A stretch of DNA of 64,000 bases, taken from positions 1 to 64,000 of the forward strand of contig OW569393.1 in assembly GCA_937625935.1 (NCBI GenBank), in the 5' to 3' direction. Positions 1 to 46,374 of this stretch are shown piece after piece (position 1 is the first letter of the stretch; every line of letters starts with the position of its first letter). The position numbers and the translations under genes are program-made. Below the pieces are notes generated by a model that was not told the origin of the DNA, ran no database searches, and was given only the letters and a program-made list of their open reading frames with translations. This DNA comes from Tetramitus jugosus. Lineage: Eukaryota > Heterolobosea > Eutetramitea > Acrasida > Vahlkampfiidae.

Positions 1-128
<128 letters not shown>

Positions 129-139
129 CCTCCGCGTCC

Positions 140-870
140 AACCCAAACCCAACCCCAAACCCAACCCAACCCAACCCAAACCCAACCCAAACCCAAACCC
201 AAACCCAAACCCAAACCCAAACCCAAACCCAAACCCAAACCCAAACCCAAACCCAAACCCAAACCCAAACCCAAACCCAAACCCAAACCCAAACCCAAAC
301 CCAAACCCAAACCCAAACCCAAACCCAAACCCAAACCCAAACCCAAACCCAAACCCAAACCCAAACCCAAACCCAAACCCAAACCCAAACCCAAACCCAA
401 ACCCAAACCCAAACCCAAACCCAAACCCAAACCCAAACCCAAACCCAAACCCAAACCCAAACCCAAACCCAAACCCAAACCCAAACCCAAACCCAAACCC
501 AAACCCAAACCCAAACCCAAACCCAAACCCAAACCCAAACCCAAACCCAAACCCAAACCCAAACCCAAACCCAAACCCAAACCCAAACCCAAACCCAAAC
601 CCAAACCCAAACCCAAACCCAAACCCAAACCCAAACCCAAACCCAAACCCAAACCCAAACCCAAACCCAAACCCAAACCCAAACCCAAACCCAAACCCAA
701 ACCCAAACCCAAACCCAAACCCAAACCCAAACCCAAACCCAAACCCAAACCCAAACCCAAACCCAAACCCAAACCCAAACCCAAACCCAAACCCAAACCC
801 AAACCCAAACCCAAACCCAAACCCAAACCCAAACCCAAACCCAAACCCAAACCCAAACCCAAACCCAAAC
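140..870. repeat. Telomere repeat array, CCCAAA hexamer (TTTGGG on the G strand)
   Basis: About 120 tandem CCCAAA units, very regular from about 180 onward and irregular at the outer edge (CCCAA and CCCCAAA variants, 140-180). The C-rich strand lies 5' at the left end, which is the expected orientation for a chromosome end. The array stops abruptly at 873, where unique subtelomeric sequence begins. The unit differs from the common TTAGGG. Confidence 0.9.
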
Positions 871-873
871 CCC

Positions 874-1310
874 AGAATTTCATATCGAAAAGTCTCGGAA
901 CAGATATAATATCTGATTCTACCGTGATTGTTCGATAAAAACTGTCGATTACATTCAGAGAAACGCAAAATCAAGTCAGTCAAAATTTCAGAAAAAACAA
1001 GTCATAAGACATCAAGTCAAAAAATATAGTTAGCAGGAAATCATGTTAAAAATGATCAAATAAGGTCCCAATACTCTGATCCAAAACAAAGAAATCATGT
1101 TTCACTCGTACATCTTATCCCCATTACAGGACCAAAATCGACTGAAATCTGTTGCAGTTTTAATACTGTTGCCGATAAAAATCTGTTAAATACAGCACAG
1201 ATGTATCGGCTCTACGAGCCGATAAAGCTCAAATCGAGTTGAAAACCACGCTAATCTCTTCGTCTAAGCTAGCTGAACCTCCTAGAGCAATAAAAAATCT
1301 CAAAAAAAAA
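874..1310. repeat. Subtelomeric direct repeat, copy 1
   Basis: Starts AGAATTTCATATCGAAA directly against the telomere array and runs to an A-rich stretch. A second copy lies 1,008 bp further in (1882-2312), with roughly 85 percent identity by eye and small indels. No convincing open reading frame is present. It contains a short perfect hairpin at 1205-1223. Confidence 0.85.
1205..1223. other. Perfect 8-bp hairpin in subtelomeric repeat
   Basis: ATCGGCTC, loop TAC, then GAGCCGAT. The second repeat copy has it at 2211-2229 with one C-to-T change that still allows a G-U pair in RNA. The structure therefore survives divergence between copies. Its function is unknown. Confidence 0.6.
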
Positions 1311-2397: not shown

Positions 2398-3239
2398 GTT
2401 GTCCATCATCAAAAAACCATCCACAAAGTCAGGATCCTGGTCTTGTTTCTACAAAATTTTATTGTACAACTTACTGTATCGCTCCATCTTGTTGGTTTTT
2501 GTCGGTTGGATACAACTCAATTCAGTCCACCGAAAATAGTTCATATGAATAATGTTCCACAACCTGGAGTTTATGAACTGACATGTCAGTTGATCCTCTC
2601 ATGTTTTTTGCTTGTTGTTCTTGTTGTAGGTATTGTATTCCATACGTGAAGGAGAACCAACCAGTGTCACAACAAAAGCACTACAATAAGTCCTACCCAA
2701 ACCCAATCCAAGACAAATTGTTTGTCATCAAACGATTGCTCATGCCCTCCGGAAGAAACTGACCTTTCAAACCAACAGGCTTTGGATGCCTTCTTTTTCA
2801 ACACTTGATTGATGAGCTGTTCATGATTGGCTTTGTTGCCCAAGGCGAAGAATTGAGCGGTCAATCAAACAAGGCATGGCCACTAACTAGAGCAAACGAG
2901 GCAAATCCAATCATCACAGGATAGTGGAAACAGATTACAAGCGTGACACAAGGTGTTCCTTCATTGCAGTTTGGTTGGATCGGCTCAACTTGTTCAAGAA
3001 CCTGAAGCTCCAAAAGCTACAACACGACTTGGTGAAAGAGACCAAGCATTGGAGCGCAACAGATGACATTAATTGATGAGGTGTAATTGATGTTCTCCCT
3101 CGATGGATATAATGATCTTTATTGAATGCAACCCTATTCATCCCCATACATATTAATTGCCCAATACTCAATGTATTGAACAAATTTGATCATTACTGTC
3201 AGATAATTTTGAGGGGGAGTTAACTCTAATAATCATTAG
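2398..3239. other. Subtelomeric sequence without a recognisable gene
   Basis: Only short open frames occur (68 codons at 2443 plus; 65 and 82 codons on the minus strand). None has a recognisable domain or a convincing start. It may be further debris of the retroelement relic to the right. Confidence 0.4.
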
Positions 3240-37538: not shown

Positions 37539-40500
37539 ATGTCCGCCAGATTTGAGCTTCTCCCAATTCAACTTGTCAAAAAGGACAAGAACAAAATCCG
37601 CACAATTCTGCAGAATTCCCTCCTAGTCATGAGTCTCCATCAGGATATATTTATTGTCACAGGAGAGGTCGAAGCACCTCGGTATTACACCCCACAAGCT
37701 GTTGGTGCAGAGCTCGCACAACAACTCTTAGTAAGAGCTGAAAAGAAAGTTGCCTTCTTTGTGATTGATGCCAGTGGAAGAGAAGGTGAAGATGGCAGAG
37801 AAGGTAGAGAAGGTAAAAGAGGTGAAAGTGGAGATTCTGGCTCTAATGGTTCCAATGGTTCTCGTTCTGGAGACGATGGAAGAGACGGAAAAGATGGAAA
37901 GAATGGGCAAGATGGTGGAAGAGGTTCAGATGGTAAGAATGGTCGAGATGGAGGTGACGCAAGAAGTATGTATTTGAGGCTGTCCATGAACTCACCTCAA
38001 CAATTGTCCTTTGCTGGAAGTTACAATGGAACACTGGAAACGAGTGGTATGAGGCCAGATAGTTGTATTTTGTTGGCTGCAAGGGGAGGGAGAGGTGGAG
38101 ATGGAGGAGATGGTGGATACGGTGGTGATGGCGGAAGTGGAGGTAGGGGAGGATATGGTGGGAGAGGGGAGAGAGGTGCGAATGGAAAGAGACCTGGAGA
38201 GGATGGAGGAGATGGCGGCAATGGAGGCGATGGAGGAAGTGGAGGTGATGGTGGCAATGGAGGTGACGGTGGTAATGGAGGTGATGGAGGTAATGGTGGT
38301 CAAGGAGGAAATATCATTGTTGAGACGACACAACCCGAATTGTTGATGTTTACAGAGTGTGACATTCGCGGAGGGAGAGCAGGTGCGAGAGGTGATAGTG
38401 GCGGAGGAGGGTGTTCAGGATTTTCTGGCTCTGGTGGAAGCAGTGGAAGTGGAGGCAGTGGAGGCAGTGCTGGACCATACAAATCTGAAATCCCGAGTGG
38501 TTCGAGTGGAAGAGGCGGTAGCAGTGGAAGCAGTGGAAACTCTGGTAAAACAGGAAGTAGTGGACATCATGGAGAATGTGGTCGCAGTGGTGTTCCAGGT
38601 GAGGATGGATCTATTTGGTATGTGATCCTTGATCCAGTCACAATGCAACCTCTGGAACAATCTTCCTCAACATTCAACTGCTCTGTTTCTTCATACATGG
38701 TCCAAGGTGTGATAGACGACAACGTGTTTGAACCTGGAGAAAGAATTGTGATCAATGCAGTGGAAGTGATAAACAATGGCGGAATGACTCTTCCAGCTGG
38801 AGCATTGCTTCAATTCAACTCGACTGAAACCTTCATTTCAGAAAATATTGGTTATTATCTGCCAGCCATCAGACCAAATGAAACAATTGTTGTTCCAGCA
38901 AGTTTCTTTGGCTCTCTTCTGGAGTATCCAGAAACCACACATGCTCGCCAACTTCATGAAACAGCCAAAGTCATTTCAACAAGTCAACTTGTGGGTTGCA
39001 ACTTTGTGGACAGCACGATTGAAACATCCCTGAATGTTCAATATCCCATTCAAATTTCTGTCATGAATGGAAATGAACAGATGATCCATGGACAACAGTC
39101 GATATTTCAAGTTCAGATAAGAAACATCTCGAGTCTTCCTTATGGTAACATGTCTGGAAATGGGGATATCTCATGGAAAATCAATACAGATAGCAGATTA
39201 AATGCCATAGGATCAACAGAAGTAAGTCCACTCACAGGAAAGATTGATCTACTTGCGCCTGGTGAATCATTTATGTATAACATGGAAGTGACTGTGGATC
39301 AAAATGTTGAATTATTTGAGATATTGCCATGGAGTGTTGAACTTTCCTTCAGAAACAAGCGTATTGAAATTGCTGAAAAGAGTACCAGAATTACGCCAAG
39401 CTATGTACCAGTCGATTCTTCCAATCAACATTTGTTTGATGTGTTATTTGTTACAAACCAACACATTGCCAAACAAGAAGCCAGACTATACATGAGAATA
39501 TTCGAGGGATTGGATCTTAGAACCAATTTTTGGGACTGTGAGCAATACAATGGCTTCAGCATTGATCAGTCCACAGGTTATGTTCATCCAGTGTCGTGGA
39601 AGAATGCATTTAATGGCAAGCTCATTGTAATGCCTCTTTTCCGTCCTGATGAATTGGTGCAACTGCTGACACCGAATGATTTCATGAGTTTATTCATTGG
39701 AGAGAACTTTGAATCACCAACTTTGCTTGACACTGGTCTCGTCGTGATTGGAGCTGACTCATCTCGATTTCTATCACAATTGTTTGGCTCTGTCCCAGAG
39801 AAGCGAGTTGACCGCAGTTGCTTGTCCAGTCATTTTTTGTTGAGTGCACCATCTCGTGTGTCATTTCAGGCAAAATTGCGATCATATGTTGCCCATAAGA
39901 AAAGCCGAGACACTGCAGCTCTTTTTTCTTTGGTGAACTCCGAGTACAAACCCGTGCAATTGGACAGCTTACTGGGTACAAGATGGCAACTAGGAACTGC
40001 TGCTGTCAAAGAAATACCAATCGATTGCACCCACAAGTTCTACAATGTTGTTCCCAAATACGATTCTCAAGAGGTGTATTTGTCAATGGATAGCTTCAAT
40101 GCACATCAGATAACCCAATTCTCATTAACATCCAGGTTTGGAGCCACATTATATGCTGTGATTTGCTCTCTGAGCATTCCTGCCAAACTTAAACTCATTC
40201 ACTCTGGAGGCGGTGCTGCAAAGTTGGAGAATTGGACCTTCACTGGTATCAACAGGGAAGTCTTCTCCATTTCAGATCTTGTTGCTTATGCACTTTACAA
40301 AGATCTTCAAATTCAACTGTTTCATGGATTTATCAAGAGACAGACCCGAATTGAAGAGCTCGTCTCACAACTGAGTTCCAATCCTGAATATTTGACGCCT
40401 GAAATGGCTGCAATTGTTTTGAACGTGCTTTATCGACTGAAGAAAGAAACCAAAGTTGAATTGGTCAACATCTTCAGCAACATGTTTCATGCAGTGCAAC

Positions 40501-40778
40501 ACTTTAAAAGAAAGAGGAGAATACTGGAGGATTTATTCTCGCAATCTTTGGGAGCGTCCGTTGTCCTAAGGATTGTTGAACAGGCCAAAGAAGAAGCTAA
40601 AAAACCATTTGAATTGACGATTTATGATTTGGAACGACCCCTACTGCTCAATGATCAGAGAATAGCAGAGATTCCAGTTCCTCTCTCCGGACACTTATGG
40701 AATTGGAGTGACAGCTTCATGAACTTATTTCCTTGTCTCGGAAGAGTGGACACCACAAATTATGTCGAGCTTTCGTAG
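37539..40778 (+). CDS. Collagen-like Gly-rich protein
   Basis: 1,079 residues from ATG 37,539; there is no signal peptide. Residues about 85-160 and 190-370 are Gly-x-x repeats (GREGEDGREGREGKRGESGD, GGDGGNGGDGG, GSSGSSGNSGKTG). About 700 residues of mixed fold follow, with beta-rich parts then helices (RRILEDLFSQSLGAS). The lack of a secretion signal argues against classical collagen. Codons are GGA/GGT-rich in the repeats. The antisense of the repeat gives Pro-rich shadow frames. Function unknown; the stop lies 26 bp before the Fanzor element. Confidence 0.65.
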   Translation: MSARFELLPIQLVKKDKNKIRTILQNSLLVMSLHQDIFIVTGEVEAPRYYTPQAVGAELAQQLLVRAEKKVAFFVIDASGREGEDGREGREGKRGESGDSGSNGSNGSRSGDDGRDGKDGKNGQDGGRGSDGKNGRDGGDARSMYLRLSMNSPQQLSFAGSYNGTLETSGMRPDSCILLAARGGRGGDGGDGGYGGDGGSGGRGGYGGRGERGANGKRPGEDGGDGGNGGDGGSGGDGGNGGDGGNGGDGGNGGQGGNIIVETTQPELLMFTECDIRGGRAGARGDSGGGGCSGFSGSGGSSGSGGSGGSAGPYKSEIPSGSSGRGGSSGSSGNSGKTGSSGHHGECGRSGVPGEDGSIWYVILDPVTMQPLEQSSSTFNCSVSSYMVQGVIDDNVFEPGERIVINAVEVINNGGMTLPAGALLQFNSTETFISENIGYYLPAIRPNETIVVPASFFGSLLEYPETTHARQLHETAKVISTSQLVGCNFVDSTIETSLNVQYPIQISVMNGNEQMIHGQQSIFQVQIRNISSLPYGNMSGNGDISWKINTDSRLNAIGSTEVSPLTGKIDLLAPGESFMYNMEVTVDQNVELFEILPWSVELSFRNKRIEIAEKSTRITPSYVPVDSSNQHLFDVLFVTNQHIAKQEARLYMRIFEGLDLRTNFWDCEQYNGFSIDQSTGYVHPVSWKNAFNGKLIVMPLFRPDELVQLLTPNDFMSLFIGENFESPTLLDTGLVVIGADSSRFLSQLFGSVPEKRVDRSCLSSHFLLSAPSRVSFQAKLRSYVAHKKSRDTAALFSLVNSEYKPVQLDSLLGTRWQLGTAAVKEIPIDCTHKFYNVVPKYDSQEVYLSMDSFNAHQITQFSLTSRFGATLYAVICSLSIPAKLKLIHSGGGAAKLENWTFTGINREVFSISDLVAYALYKDLQIQLFHGFIKRQTRIEELVSQLSSNPEYLTPEMAAIVLNVLYRLKKETKVELVNIFSNMFHAVQHFKRKRRILEDLFSQSLGASVVLRIVEQAKEEAKKPFELTIYDLERPLLLNDQRIAEIPVPLSGHLWNWSDSFMNLFPCLGRVDTTNYVELS

Positions 40779-40804
40779 ATAGAGACAAGTTTTTCTCGTT
40801 ATTT

Positions 40805-40820
40805 TTAAGGATGTAGTTCG
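40805..40820 (+). repeat. Left inverted repeat with TTAA
   Basis: TTAAGGATGTAGTTCG; the inverse is at 44,818-44,833. Similarity stops outside these 16 bases on both sides. Confidence 0.65.
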
Positions 40821-40919
40821 TTGGACCTCAACGTATAAATAGAACTCTACCTATAAATTTTCCAGACTGCCCAAAAAAACAGGTGCACGACACCCAATCA
40901 CAAACACAAGCTTACGATC

Positions 40920-41090
40920 ATGGTTGCCACATCTCATCAATGGTTCTGTTCCGGCTGTGGTTCCGTCTCAGCCAAGAGTATTATAATGAATACTGCCTCA
41001 TGGTTCTGCCCAGGATGCGGTCAAGTACTGGTTGATTCAACAAGCAATCAAAACAGGCACAAAAAATTTCCTTTGCAATTTGCACGGTAA
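40920..41090 (+). CDS. Small duplicated zinc-ribbon ORF
   Basis: 56 residues from ATG 40,920. Two copies of a WFCSGCGS/WFCPGCGQ knuckle lie 20 residues apart, which would bind one or two zinc ions. TATAAATA at 40,834 lies 86 bp upstream. Its 3' end overlaps the antisense F-box fragment, so it may be either a real short gene or a captured piece. Confidence 0.45.
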   Translation: MVATSHQWFCSGCGSVSAKSIIMNTASWFCPGCGQVLVDSTSNQNRHKKFPLQFAR

Positions 41091-41378
41091 GCCTGACTTG
41101 CAAACGGCCAAACAGTGTGAGTACAAATTGTCCATATAAGACCTTATTGTTGATAGATTATTGACTATCGAAGATCGAAAATCCCGACACGTCAATACCA
41201 AATTCAACACATCTTCTACACCAAGGAACGAACCAACTAGATACACAAATAAATCAATATGTATATCGGTTATTCTTACTTTTCTTTTGACTCCAAACTT
41301 TACCAATTGTTGGTGTTGGTTATGTCTTCTTTTGGCGCCTTTTCCTTGTTTTCCCATTTGTTCATTGATTTTTTTCAT
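41037..41378 (-). pseudogene. F-box protein fragment
   Basis: 113 codons from ATG 41,378. A basic N-terminus is followed by an F-box-like segment (DLFVYLVGSFLGVEDVLNLV, then LTCRDFRSSI) and nothing of a substrate-binding domain. It overlaps the zinc-ribbon ORF at one end and abuts the tandem duplication at the other. Best read as a captured fragment; a short functional F-box protein is possible. Confidence 0.5.
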
Positions 41379-41637
41379 CAAAAAAAACTTGCAAAAAACA
41401 GAAAACAAACACTCTGAAGGACATCGTGAATGCGAGTGACCTGATGATGAGTATGAGTTTTCTGACGTTTGTCAAATTCTGTCCTATTGATACCATTAGA
41501 GATTTTTTTCAAAAAAAACTTGCAAAAAACAGAAAACAAACACTCTGAAGGACATCGTGAATGCGAGTGACCTGATGATGAGTATGAGTTTTCTGACGTT
41601 TGTCAAATTCTGTCCTATTGATACCATTAGAGAGGTG
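41376..41637. repeat. 131-bp tandem duplication
   Basis: Two near-identical 131-bp units (about 41,376-41,506 and 41,507-41,637), differing by a 3-base TCA near the start. Each holds the same VPS35-like coding stretch (SDLMMSMSFLTFVKFCPIDT). The near-identity points to a recent event. Confidence 0.9.
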
Positions 41638-41642
41638 TTGAA

Positions 41643-42380
41643 TTGTCCGATAACTTGAGTATTCAGATCTCATTGATGACACTTGCTCTTCAAACATATC
41701 CTGATAACACTGACTATGTCAACAAGATTATTAATAACATTGCTAGTCAATTGAATAGCACTGCACTTGCTTCAGATGAAATTGTAGAGATGTTGAAGCG
41801 ATTGTTGTTGGTGCCACTCGAGTCATACAACAATGTGCTAACAGTTTTGAAGTTGGAGAAGTATGGTGATATTATTCATTCTCTTGGATATGAACAGAGA
41901 AAGTTTATTGCACTGAGCATTGTGAGATGCGAAAACTATGACACATTGTCCACAAAGACCTGCCAATACTCATCCAAGCTATTGAGGAAGCCTGATCAGT
42001 GCAGAGCTGGCTTCACTTGCTCTCATCTGTTCTGGCCGTTCGTGAATAACGAAGAGCTTCAGAACAGTTCAAAGGCACTTGAATGCTTGCAATGGTCGTT
42101 GAAGATTGTCAAGGCATGCATGCCTGCACAACAAATTCCATTGTTTGTTGACATTTTGAACGTGTACGCTTATCACTTTGACAAGGACAATGACAAGGTG
42201 ACTGCCGAGTACATTAACGGTCTCATTGATCTAATCGCTGACAATATCTCAAAGATTGAAGAAGAGGAGACTCCTGATGATGTCTTTGCACCAACCAATG
42301 TCTTCTATCGCAACACTATCAACTATTTGAGATCCAAGAAGAGGAGTGATTCTGAAAAGTATGCCGAGATTGCTATTTAA
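41643..42380 (+). pseudogene. VPS35 C-terminal fragment, internally deleted
   Basis: The frame matches the retromer subunit VPS35. An upstream helical segment (LPLESYNNVLTVLKL equivalent: VPLESYNNVLTVLKLEKYG) is joined directly to the C-terminal block SKLLRKPDQCRAGFTCSHLF and FVDILNVYAYHFDKDNDKVT. In known VPS35 roughly 190 residues separate these parts, and about 480 residues precede them; both are missing. There is no ATG at the start (TTG), and the preceding 131-bp duplication carries more of the same gene in another frame. Retromer recycles cargo from endosomes; this copy cannot build the full solenoid. Confidence 0.8.
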
Positions 42381-42830
42381 TAGAGAATAAACTTCTTCAC
42401 TCAACAAGAGGAACAGACTCGCTCTCTCAGCACTCAACAACTTGCCAACACCAGAGATCAAATGCTGCAAAAAGACACCTCTTGTCGACTCTCCATCTTT
42501 TTTGATTGATTTGGTCGTTGTTGTTGTTGATGTTCGTTGTGCGACTTGTGTTTTTCGTTGTTGTTGTTGTCGTGTCAGAGAGAAAGTTTTTCGTTGGTTC
42601 AAGATTGGATAGATAGGTGGATATATTTTAAAAAAATACAATAAATGTTGTATCAGTTTCCTCTAAGCTGCGGAATTGGCGCAGTTGTAAAAATTTCCGT
42701 TGAGACTGTCTTTACAACGGCAACGGCCATCTTCCTCGGTTTAAAAAGCGCTGTCTTTTTCGCTGTTTGATTCAACTCACACAACAAATACAACACAACA
42801 AATACAACACACAACAAATACAATAACATT
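42381..42830. other. Spacer and Fanzor promoter
   Basis: A T-rich stretch with an A/T core near 42,620 is followed by an A/C-rich leader with three near-tandem ACAACAAATACAAC units (42,779-42,826) just before the Fanzor ATG. The minus ORFs here have no domain. Confidence 0.45.
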
Positions 42831-44744
42831 ATGCCACGAGGCGTGCCGAAGGACGGCAAGAGAAAGAGAAAGAGAGAGACTGTCAAAAAAAATGAATACT
42901 CATCACATTACGTGGTCAAGGTCGGTCTGAAGTCTCTGTTGTTGCATCATCCAACTCTGTTACCAATCATACAGACTCAAGCTCTGGAGATTACAAGGAT
43001 TGCTCTTCGACTCACAAGATTTATAAACATATTCGTTTTGAGGCACTTGGAGTCTGACTATCAAATCCCTTTATTAGATCAAGTGTTTCTTCAAAGATTA
43101 GGTTCTGTGTTGTTTGGACGCAATTCAAAACCAAGAGACAATAACTTAAGTCTCATCAACGAGTCTGTCAACATGGACGATGTAGTAGTCAAACTCAGAA
43201 AGATTTATCAGAGTTTTGCCACGTCCATCAATTATGTTGCCAGGTCTCTCAATGTCAACATCTCCAACATGCTCAAGTTCACATTGGAACCAAGACTGAG
43301 GAAGTATCTGAGGGTCAGAATGAATCAACTACACAGTGACTCATCTATTCCAAAGTCAGAACAAAGAAGGGTTGTTGAATACATTATCAGAAGGTTGACA
43401 TTTAGCACTCCTGTCCACGATTTTATCAAATTGCCTCCAAAAGAGTTGATAGAGACGATTCCTGTGTTGATCCGAGAGGTTCGAACACTTGTTGATGCTA
43501 AAACTGATGAAGTAATTGATGAATCATTTGTGAAGAACAACACCAATAACATGCTGAAGTTTTACTGGCATGTTCAACAATTTCTGATCAACAATGATAT
43601 GAAATCGTTTGCACTACTTCCTTTGTCTCATTTCAAGTGCAGGTGTATGGAGATTGGCACAAAGGAATTAGTTGATATGCTTAAACAGAAGAAACAAGGA
43701 AGACAAAAGAAGGGCGAGGAGTCAACTGAATTGAAGTGTAATCTCAAGTGTTTGAATGTTGGAACAAAGAAGATTCAAATCGACTCAATCAGAACTGACG
43801 GTATTCAGGCCTCTGTTGTTCTCAGACATCAACTCGTTGGCAATCACAAGAACAATAAGGCAAAGGAATCCAAGGACCAGAAAGAAGCAAAGAAGAGAAA
43901 GAAGGAAACAAGTATGAACGAAGGTGCTGAATATTTGGTTGGGATTGACCCGGGTATTGTTACGTTGGTGAGTTGTGTTGATTCAGATGGCAAGAAGTGG
44001 GAGTTGTCTAACAAAACATATAGACATCTGTCCCACCATTCGAAAAACTCCAAGCGATTGTTGAAATACAAAGCAGAATGGAACGAAATGAATGAGAAGA
44101 ACTTGGATGAACTCCAAAACTCAATCAAACAGGCCGGTGTACCAACAAGTGGTCTGTTCCTTGAACACATCAATTCTGTATTGAAAGTCGAGGATGATTT
44201 GTTGAATTTTTATTGCACCCCAAAGGTGAAGAGACTGAATTGGGATAGCTATATAATGAGAGATAAGACGATTGCCAATGTTATGAATGACTTTCGAAAG
44301 AGAGCAAATGGAAGAAGCATGTTAATTGGGATGGGCAATGCTGGTTTTGGTCATTGTTACAAAGGACATGCTCCAACACCAAAAGGAAAGCTATTGAAAA
44401 AGTTGAATGAGCACTTCAAAGTGAAAATGATCGACGAGTTCATGACAAGTCAGAAATGTCATCATTGCCATTCTCACATGAAGCCAGTCAAGCATAAGAG
44501 AATAGACAAGAATGGAACGTTGAATGTCTCTGTCGTCCGAGGAGTTAAACCGTGTGCAACCACTAAATGTTTAGTGACTCACAACAGAGACATCAATGCG
44601 GCCAAGAACATGCTCCATCTACTGAGAACAGAAATGGATGGACAGTCACGTCCCGATGCCTTCAAGAGGAAGAAAAAGGTCGCAAAAGAATTAATCAAAA
44701 TGGTGGAACACCTCCAAGGCTCACTCCATCAAGCTGCTATGTAA
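42831..44744 (+). CDS. Fanzor, eukaryotic TnpB-family RNA-guided nuclease
   Basis: 637 residues from ATG 42,831 with a basic N-terminus (KDGKRKRKRE). A helical and wedge-like N-terminal half includes SFALLPLSHFKCRCMEIGT. RuvC-I is GIDPGIVTLVS with Asp373. At the usual TnpB RuvC-II position there is IGMGNAGFG and no Glu; instead Glu536 stands in MIDEFMTSQKCHHC, the rearranged glutamate known in Fanzors. A four-Cys zinc site uses C543, C546, C575 and C580. RuvC-III is HNRDINAAKN with Asp587. All catalytic residues are present and there are no frameshifts, so activity is plausible. Fanzors use an RNA encoded next to the gene to cut DNA. Confidence 0.9.
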   Translation: MPRGVPKDGKRKRKRETVKKNEYSSHYVVKVGLKSLLLHHPTLLPIIQTQALEITRIALRLTRFINIFVLRHLESDYQIPLLDQVFLQRLGSVLFGRNSKPRDNNLSLINESVNMDDVVVKLRKIYQSFATSINYVARSLNVNISNMLKFTLEPRLRKYLRVRMNQLHSDSSIPKSEQRRVVEYIIRRLTFSTPVHDFIKLPPKELIETIPVLIREVRTLVDAKTDEVIDESFVKNNTNNMLKFYWHVQQFLINNDMKSFALLPLSHFKCRCMEIGTKELVDMLKQKKQGRQKKGEESTELKCNLKCLNVGTKKIQIDSIRTDGIQASVVLRHQLVGNHKNNKAKESKDQKEAKKRKKETSMNEGAEYLVGIDPGIVTLVSCVDSDGKKWELSNKTYRHLSHHSKNSKRLLKYKAEWNEMNEKNLDELQNSIKQAGVPTSGLFLEHINSVLKVEDDLLNFYCTPKVKRLNWDSYIMRDKTIANVMNDFRKRANGRSMLIGMGNAGFGHCYKGHAPTPKGKLLKKLNEHFKVKMIDEFMTSQKCHHCHSHMKPVKHKRIDKNGTLNVSVVRGVKPCATTKCLVTHNRDINAAKNMLHLLRTEMDGQSRPDAFKRKKKVAKELIKMVEHLQGSLHQAAM

Positions 44745-44833
44745 GTCCCGATTATGTAGGAGCGTTAAGGTGTCTTCTCGGGAAATCATAATTTTTTTAT
44801 TATGGGTTTTATTTCACCGAACTACATCCTTAA
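44745..44833 (+). ncRNA. Candidate guide-RNA (omega RNA) scaffold region
   Basis: The 89 bp between the Fanzor stop and the right inverted repeat include a hairpin CATAAT-TTTTTT-ATTATG (44,787-44,804) and end in the repeat. In TnpB and some Fanzor systems the scaffold overlaps the gene 3' end and the guide reads out of the element end. This is inferred from position only; the hairpin could instead be a transcription end signal. Confidence 0.3.
44818..44833 (-). repeat. Right inverted repeat with TTAA
   Basis: CGAACTACATCCTTAA, the exact inverse of 40,805-40,820. Confidence 0.65.
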
Positions 44834-44856
44834 GCGGATAAACGTTGGAACTGATC

Positions 44857-46374
44857 ATGGAGTTCCATCTCAGCAGAAAAGAAGAAAGAATGTTTCGTCA
44901 GGCGTTGAGATGCATTCCCAAGCATTTGGTCATTAGATCCAATGTACCCAATAGAGGTGCCATGTTGGCCAATAAGACCCTTGTTGAAATGTCCAGACAA
45001 GCATCCTTCTGCACTGAAACTGTGAAACATGCTTCTGTTGTTGAGTCTTCTCATACGCCTCCGAAAGCACAAGATACGTCAAACACAAAGAAGAATAGTC
45101 ATGTGGCCAAGGCCTTCGAACGCATCAACTTGTTGTGCGATAAGGATACGTTCACTCATCAGGAGGTGTCTACATCAGAGAACGGAGAGGATTTTGGTAT
45201 TACCGACCAAGCTCTGATCCGTGGCCGATCTGTACAGATCCTTTACCTTTCAGTGGCTGGGAACAGTTTGTCCGAGGTACACATCCAACAACTAGAAAGT
45301 GCTTTCCAGGCTGCAGGATTCTTCAGAACACCTGTTGTTGGCATTTATGATTTTCGATGCCAGAGTATTCAAAAAGGCAAAATCTCTCCGGGTGGAATCT
45401 CGAACATTTTTCAAAGAAATGCGTGGTTCTCTGGCTTCGCACCTCAAATTTCTTTGATATTTGGTCCATCCTTAGGTGCTGTTTTCAGTCTGTATGCTTC
45501 AGATTTTATCTTCATGGTAAAGAATGGCTATGATACTTCTAAGTTTAAGCCAGGCATAGCACATTCGACATTCGAGCAGGATGTAGACTGCTTGAAGAGT
45601 ATCAGAGAGTTTATCCACTTTTTGCCATTGTCAAGAAAGGAGATGTCACCCATCATTGAAAATTCTGACCCAACAACAAGAGGTGATGACGCTCTGAATT
45701 CTATTATTTCTCTAGATCCCAATACTGCATACAATATGAAGAATATTATCAGATCGATTGTAGATGATGAAAACTTCTGTGAACTAATGCCAGATCATGC
45801 CAGGAATATCCTTACTGGTTTTGCTCGCATGAATGGACAGGTTGTAGCAATTGTCGCGAATCAGCCTTGTGAGACTGCAGGAATTTTCGACTACGATTCC
45901 AGTGCTAAGGCTGCCAAATTCGTCAGATTTGCAAACACATTCAATATACCAATACTAACCTTTGTGGACGTACCTGGACTCTTGTATGAGGAAGATGATG
46001 TCCCTCGAAAAGGCGGGGAGCTCTTATTTGAGTATGTGAATGCTACTGTTCCAAGGATTACCATTGTTACCAGGAAGGCACATGATGACGCTTATGATGT
46101 CATTTCTTCGGAATACTTGATAGGTAAATTCAATTACTCGTGGGCGATGACTTCGAGGAAGGACACGGCTGATGTTAGTCAAGAAACCAAGTCTATTTAT
46201 CACAGTATCGAACCTTCTGCAACCAGACAACGTATATGCGAAGATTTGGAATCGTTAAAGACAAGAGAACCTGATCAACCCAGACCCTTAACCTGGAAAG
46301 AGGTGGTATGGGCTGTAAGAAATTTGTTATTGATACTCTTCTCTTTGTTCATACTTATTCGTTATGTTTGTTAA
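44857..46374 (+). CDS. Degenerate acyl-CoA carboxyltransferase paralogue (PCCB-like) with C-terminal anchor
   Basis: 505 residues from ATG 44,857 (upstream TTG rejected). The fold of biotin-dependent carboxyltransferase beta subunits is recognisable: a GFARMNGQVVAIVANQP block, FVRFANTFNIPILTFVDVPG, and NATVPRITIVTRKAHDDAYD. In propionyl-CoA carboxylase beta the next motifs are Gly-rich oxyanion loops (GGIIRHGAK and EIAVMGAKGAV types); here they read RKGGELLFE and SRKDTADVSQET, so catalysis is probably lost. A hydrophobic tail (LLLILFSLFILIRYV) ends the protein, unlike the soluble enzyme. Possibly a membrane-attached, repurposed paralogue. Confidence 0.7.
   Translation: MEFHLSRKEERMFRQALRCIPKHLVIRSNVPNRGAMLANKTLVEMSRQASFCTETVKHASVVESSHTPPKAQDTSNTKKNSHVAKAFERINLLCDKDTFTHQEVSTSENGEDFGITDQALIRGRSVQILYLSVAGNSLSEVHIQQLESAFQAAGFFRTPVVGIYDFRCQSIQKGKISPGGISNIFQRNAWFSGFAPQISLIFGPSLGAVFSLYASDFIFMVKNGYDTSKFKPGIAHSTFEQDVDCLKSIREFIHFLPLSRKEMSPIIENSDPTTRGDDALNSIISLDPNTAYNMKNIIRSIVDDENFCELMPDHARNILTGFARMNGQVVAIVANQPCETAGIFDYDSSAKAAKFVRFANTFNIPILTFVDVPGLLYEEDDVPRKGGELLFEYVNATVPRITIVTRKAHDDAYDVISSEYLIGKFNYSWAMTSRKDTADVSQETKSIYHSIEPSATRQRICEDLESLKTREPDQPRPLTWKEVVWAVRNLLLILFSLFILIRYVC

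Follow-up and report, generated by a model that had tools for sequence, protein, structure and literature searches.

A TTAA-bounded Fanzor element with captured VPS35 sequence in Tetramitus jugosus and its apparent Kolobok-type association

What moves, and what retains, a gene for an RNA-guided nuclease that lies between transposon-like ends without a transposase gene? The question is raised by an element at positions 40805-44833 of a 64,000-nucleotide stretch of DNA from Tetramitus jugosus (contig OW569393.1 of assembly GCA_937625935.1, forward strand), hereafter the window, which represents one end of contig C50 in the 26.35-Mb assembly. The 16-mer TTAAGGATGTAGTTCG, comprising TTAA and a 12-bp terminal inverted repeat (TIR), was found without mismatch at both boundaries, at 40805-40820 on the plus strand and at 44818-44833 on the minus strand. 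The interior holds a 56-aa open reading frame (ORF) with two CxxC pairs, a piece of VPS35 and a 637-aa Fanzor, a nuclease of eukaryotes that is related to those of CRISPR systems. No DDE transposase was found inside the element among the scanned ORFs, and the candidate partner transposase P0006 had no match there. These results agreed with a preliminary description of the locus, which had reported exact repeats beside TTAA, an intact Fanzor and no DDE transposase, and had proposed an apparently non-autonomous element with captured host sequence. Our preferred reading, with a probability of about 0.72, is a non-autonomous Kolobok-type transposon whose Fanzor would re-cut emptied sites. The features on which it is built are as follows.

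40805..40820, plus strand: left end, TTAA target-site copy and 12-bp TIR GGATGTAGTTCG, type A (exact sequence match)
44818..44833, minus strand: right end, 12-bp TIR and TTAA target-site copy (exact inverted copy)
42831..44744, plus strand: Fanzor, 637 aa, with RuvC residues D373/E536/D587 and a C4 zinc site in the TNB domain (Pfam, PDB match)
42653..42830, plus strand: Fanzor 5' flank common to type A and type B elements (copy comparison)

The ends belong to a family of copies. Genome-wide, 19 exact matches to the type A 16-mer were listed; the estimated chance expectation for any one 16-mer, counting both strands of 26.3 Mb, was about 0.01. Eighteen of the 19 sites lay within 4 kb of a Fanzor match, so the repeat does recur near Fanzor elsewhere in the assembly; the 4-kb zones, drawn around 53 of the 66 Fanzor matches, cover about 2% of the genome. 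Since two mismatches or fewer yielded 34 type A sites and 19 sites in the control, for which the pattern was read backwards, only exact or near-exact type A sites were considered informative. Besides the window, seven type A pairs delimit elements of 2.2-3.8 kb, two of them with a deviating end (one mismatch in one TIR on C32; TTGG replacing the right TTAA on C24). Further copies of the same Fanzor are bounded by a second end, type B (TTAAGGTGGCGGTC), with 34 exact sites, 31 of them within 4 kb of a Fanzor match, and 44 sites at one mismatch or fewer compared with 4 in the backwards control. The two types share their 3' interior and differ only in the last ~24 bp before TTAA, and at least three Fanzor lineages, which are about 95-100%, 89-91% and 65% identical to the window protein, each include both types. 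The most divergent type A copy, E32 on C32, has a broken Fanzor that is 42-45% identical and little else inside. Three exact type B ends have no Fanzor within 4 kb (C10:247203, C24:126318 and C25:365143) and possibly mark other cargo or the type B partner. In most left ends read, of both types, a motif resembling CGTATAAATA is found in subterminal position, sometimes more than once; it is possibly a promoter or a transposase site.

Of 12 elements, 11 have TTAA at each end and differ in their flanks, the exception being E24 with TTGG on its right. A search with the joined flanks of the 12 elements identified an empty site on C8 (L062), whose sequence was read and which has the same ~180-bp flank as E32, a single TTAA and no element, indicating that insertion duplicates TTAA. 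Other junction-spanning matches, seen at match level only, were obtained for E26 (72 and 74%), B22 (88%), E11 (95% over 43 bp) and E32 (81%). It is very improbable that the copies are dead repeats, with Fanzor as passenger DNA that segmental duplication rather than transposition has multiplied: the failure to find an intact transposase would suit such an origin, but the TTAA copies with their differing flanks, the empty site and the low between-lineage substitution ratios of Fanzor speak against it.

The Fanzor gene itself bore out the earlier claim of intactness. The protein matched Pfam Cas12f1-like_TNB at 9.8e-10 and the SpuFz1 structure in the PDB at 4.3e-13, and its zinc cysteines were read as Cys 543/546/575/580. 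Among the 66 genomic matches listed for it, 19 span all 637 residues without a stop, all 19 keep the D/E/D triad, and four full-length Fanzors beyond the window are 99-100% identical. The ratio of nonsynonymous to synonymous substitution (dN/dS) over codons 1-555 was 0.173, 0.147, 0.149, 0.159 and 0.134 in five between-lineage pairs, from which we conclude that the gene is under purifying selection.

With regard to what moves the element, the association appears to be of Kolobok type. As described in PMC9587614, Kolobok, as opposed to piggyBac, combines TTAA duplication with GG...CC (5'-RR/YY-3') termini, and its transposase has the residue order D...D..DxxH..zinc site..E. GG was present at both ends in all 12 elements whose ends were read here, fitting the 5'-RR...YY-3' pattern. 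At the sole exact type A end without Fanzor, on C47, 109 bp separate the type A right 35 bp from the 3' end of decayed transposase sequence, and on C52 the 3' end of the same transposase gene has a two-mismatch end at a distance of 117 bp; the other listed matches to this gene are at C52 and at C1, where it is broken off near the contig end. Five relatives (P0006, P0007, P0009, P0010 and P0011) keep D250, D334, D355xxH358, H405/H410/C413/C418 and E532, in an order that agrees with the published description of Kolobok. Residues 242-332 of the P0006 AlphaFold model are predicted to form three successive strands followed by a helix and another strand, as at the beginning of an RNase H-like order. 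A profile of the transposase alignment found no match in the PDB. Because only decayed transposase and no intact one was found, the elements look non-autonomous in this assembly, and a Kolobok DDE transposase, detected there only as remnants, would act on their ends in trans.

The preliminary description had instead called the element piggyBac-like, and movement of a non-autonomous element by the genome's own piggyBac transposase would be consistent with the TTAA duplication. The genome contains 12 matches to PF13843 (piggyBac), some in long open frames, and the piggyBac copies on C18 and C30 are 99.5% alike over 2.7 kb. However, none of the 12 matches lay near the listed type A or B ends, and four piggyBac loci showed neither a TTAA-bounded end pair nor the start of a type A or B end, although these loci may stop short of the ends. 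Together with the GG...CC termini and the non-piggyBac nature of the remnants beside type A ends, this led us to reject piggyBac as the partner, and its involvement is unlikely. Piggybac-type transposase genes are present at L052-L055, some in long open frames, and the piggyBac matches at C18:38735 and C39:393561 had identical scores.

What else the element has acquired, and how its parts have been exchanged, is seen in two further segments.

41594..42381, plus strand: captured VPS35 segment, with an ORF of 234 aa at 41676-42380 (Pfam, host-gene alignment)
44505..44808, plus strand: homogenised module, Fanzor C-terminus and start of the 3' noncoding region (identity per bin)

Pack-type transposons carry a genomic host gene piece with an intron between their TIRs. 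The same form of gene capture was found here, with a host fragment within the TIRs and a host copy elsewhere, on C22 (L056), whose 3' half is open and aligns to residues 356-784 of solved VPS35. The truncated VPS35 recognised in the preliminary description was confirmed by Pfam (2.5e-49); it corresponds to L056 1730-2073 joined to 2674-3126, leaving a 600-bp in-frame deletion. Comparison of 23 queries, representing 21 distinct loci picked for carrying the piece, showed that the elements contain either host positions 1730-2410 or 1730-2073 plus 2674-3126 (window, C16 and C34) at 95.9-100% identity, a range that excludes 46-bp partial matches at 83-93%. The piece is absent from eight short type B loci, whose match to the window element begins at position 1834 or farther on. 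As it spans what reads as an intron, it was captured as genomic DNA, and as Fanzors of 65% identity carry a piece still 96-99% identical to the host, it has spread after capture, most simply by recombination among copies, as passive cargo. Unlike the Pack-type pattern, one captured piece is common to many Fanzor elements. In the copy at C27:337642-339284, the VPS35 pieces flank the window copy's deletion with ~600 bp between them, and this copy seems to retain more.

A sharp mosaic was also observed within Fanzor. Between the window copy (E50) and B6b of the 65% lineage, codons 1-555 are saturated at synonymous sites and codons 556-637 have a synonymous divergence (dS) of 0. In 109-bp bins, the window element and this lineage (A1, B6b and B19b) are 42-79% identical upstream and 99-100% identical from element position ~3701, except in the bin containing the differing ends. 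Homogenisation has not reached all lineages, with B22, B26 and B48 being 86% identical to the window in the module's first bin and E50 showing a dS of 0.15 in codons 556-637 against B22 and B48. Judged by these identities, the last ~300 bp, comprising the C-terminus and the putative guide-RNA scaffold and nearly unchanged between some lineages that otherwise share about 60% identity, is a recombining module.

Such exchange could also arise if the main activity of Fanzor were homing-like rather than directed at emptied donor sites, with other copies or alleles being cut so that repair copies modules by gene conversion. This activity is compatible with the Kolobok-type reading and would account for the mosaic, for the host-like VPS35 piece in distant lineages and for the occurrence of both end types inside each of at least three lineages. 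Nevertheless, ordinary recombination between repeats yields the same mosaic, and the right flanks, which are the predicted guides, vary from copy to copy, so that other elements would not be targeted; we regard homing as doubtful. As a tentative extension, Fanzor and its guide-RNA end may form a module common to two TTAA families and moved by recombination, in which cutting would drive conversion of the C-terminus and scaffold, with VPS35 carried along.

How the nuclease might retain the element depends on two predicted segments at its right end.

44746..44833, plus strand: putative omegaRNA scaffold (consensus fold, copy comparison)
44834..44853, plus strand: right flank, predicted to supply the guide (by analogy with the guide RNAs of SpuFz1 and ascovirus Fanzor1)

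The scaffold is most likely formed by the 3' noncoding region, the right TIR and TTAA, and the guide by the host sequence immediately right of TTAA. The consensus fold of 15 copies contains two stems, a stem UCCCGA/UCGGGA and a hairpin UCAUAAU/AUUAUGG, with no compensatory changes among these near-identical copies. In addition, an internal UUAAGG (44765-44770), preserved in the most divergent lineage, E32, may pair with the terminal CCUUAA (44828-44833). According to PMC10711439, Fanzor1 scaffolds are predicted to contain the TIR and the duplication, with the RNA extending ~15 nt beyond. An alternative guide, the element's terminal ~24 nt in which type A and B ends differ, was set aside as less likely because CCUUAA can pair with UUAAGG and because published Fanzor1 scaffolds include the TIR and duplication. 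The flanking bases were counted at ends within retrieved sequence, after one C15 site judged false had been dropped, with the background taken from the window (T 32%, C 14%). Of 20 left ends, 13 have T immediately before TTAA, 6 have A and 1 has C (p 0.003 for T against 32%), and the outward base at 28 right ends was C in 13, T in 7, A in 7 and G in 1. At the right end, TTAA is preceded within the element by C, in type A and type B alike. A target motif ending in TTAA with a non-C base before it fits these counts, and the filled right junction (C-TTAA) would then be spared because of its C, provided that the motif includes this position. Fanzor motifs given in PMC10432273 are CATA, TTAAN, CCG and TAG.

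Under the Kolobok-type reading, cut-and-paste excision would restore a TTAA site that matches the guide, Fanzor would cut that site, and the copy would be regained with a sister or homologous chromosome still bearing the element as repair template. The likely role of Fanzor is thus to cut the emptied site again, with the right flank as its guide, in line with the retention by RNA-guided cutting suggested in the preliminary description. The right flank of E32 (L014), its predicted guide, matches the paralogous empty site on C8; by this model E32 RNA would also target C8, although the E32 Fanzor is broken.

Several points weigh against this reading. An intact Kolobok transposase was not found with the P0006 query (8 matches, all fragments or broken), although several element copies are 99-100% alike. 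The likeness to Kolobok rests on a published description rather than on curated Kolobok sequences; Pfam is weak, with PF20700 at 31.9 bits for P0007 (above the cut-off; labelled Mutator-like, 8.6e-8), 18.2 for P0006 (below it) and none for P0009-P0011; the structure predicted for P0006 by AlphaFold is of poor quality (mean pLDDT 47.7), and the C52 match to the transposase gene is short (E 1.2e-4). Within lineages, dN/dS ranged from 0.085 to 0.306 in five pairs with few changes, and it was not estimable between the window and the 65% lineage. The putative scaffold is no longer complete in E11, B34 and B3, and the fold of a 194-nt region was no better than that of shuffled sequences (z -0.86; z -2.04 for 112 nt). 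The flank test was post hoc, T at -1 is not fixed, and G follows the right TTAA in 13 of 28 cases (p 4e-5), which a transposase preference could explain. Finally, the motif of the N. lovaniensis Fanzor is CCG, as given in PMC10432273.

The remaining features of the element and its surroundings are as follows.

40920..41090, plus strand: 56-aa ORF containing two CxxC pairs and overlapping at its end with a donor-like GTAAGC (ORF and copy comparison)
41372..41633, plus strand: 131-bp direct duplication, units 98% alike (sequence comparison with other copies)

The 56-aa ORF is 100% identical in 7 type A copies, the window included, 98% identical at C24 and partial at C1 and C23. It had been described as a zinc-ribbon ORF; the cysteine pairs are present, but all Pfam zinc-ribbon matches were under the cut-off (best 19.3 against 24 bits). 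Pairwise comparison revealed a weak resemblance to the N-terminus of the transposase relative P0010 (10/22 residues, E 3e-4) and no match of note to P0009. The ORF is perhaps a relic of a transposase first exon and, given this 22-residue resemblance, type A may, weakly, be a transposase-deleted derivative. Both 131-bp units are present in E26 and some type B copies, and several other type A copies have one. The F-box fragment reported earlier was rejected, being an antisense ORF with an F-box-like match of 14.6 bits against a cut-off of 24.3 (E 0.029). An Rfam search of 40500-45000 at E 0.5 returned a single sub-threshold, unrelated match. A collagen-like ORF stops 26 bp before the element and a carboxyl-transferase ORF starts 23 bp after it. 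At window positions 1-880, a stretch of poly-C precedes a long (CCCAAA)n array, which gives a telomere-like contig end.

Fanzor is known from Helitron, Mariner, IS4-like, Sola and MuDR transposons, as listed in PMC3627910. A literature search, conducted mostly without subscription papers, found no publication joining Fanzor or TnpB with Kolobok, which does not establish absence from print. Spu-1/SpuFz1 of Spizellomyces (PMC10432273) likewise has a Fanzor ORF between inverted repeats in many copies, the 3' noncoding region and right repeat as scaffold with the flank as guide (here predicted), and, next to the left end, conserved bases in agreement with the target motif. The Spu-1 motif is CATA, whereas the present elements have a TTAA site, come in two end families, contain a captured host gene and show exchange of modules. 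The insect-virus Fanzor1 elements share 4-bp TTAN duplications and 13-bp TIRs (PMC3627910, PMC10711439), with the TIR and duplication predicted within the guide-RNA scaffold (PMC10711439); these are viral with no transposase assigned, whereas the present elements reside in a eukaryotic assembly of 26 Mb, together with remains of a Kolobok-like partner. In a search of viral contigs, 320 stretches matched a pattern and none was a relative by tblastn. KolobokP (PMC9587614) is also a Kolobok transposon bearing a site-specific nuclease besides its transposase, but in the present element the nuclease is of a predicted RNA-guided kind, the transposase gene is not inside and repeats like those of KolobokP are absent. 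The Kolobok-type association appears to extend the kinds of transposon known to carry Fanzor. The elements provide a resource of 19 full-length Fanzor copies with the right end found for each, both ends for several and at least one read empty site, and the retention hypothesis is directly testable because each copy shows its predicted motif, its predicted guide and the right junction expected to stay uncut. The way in which lineages have swapped ends, cargo and the guide-RNA end represents a clear natural case of modular RNA-guided nuclease evolution.

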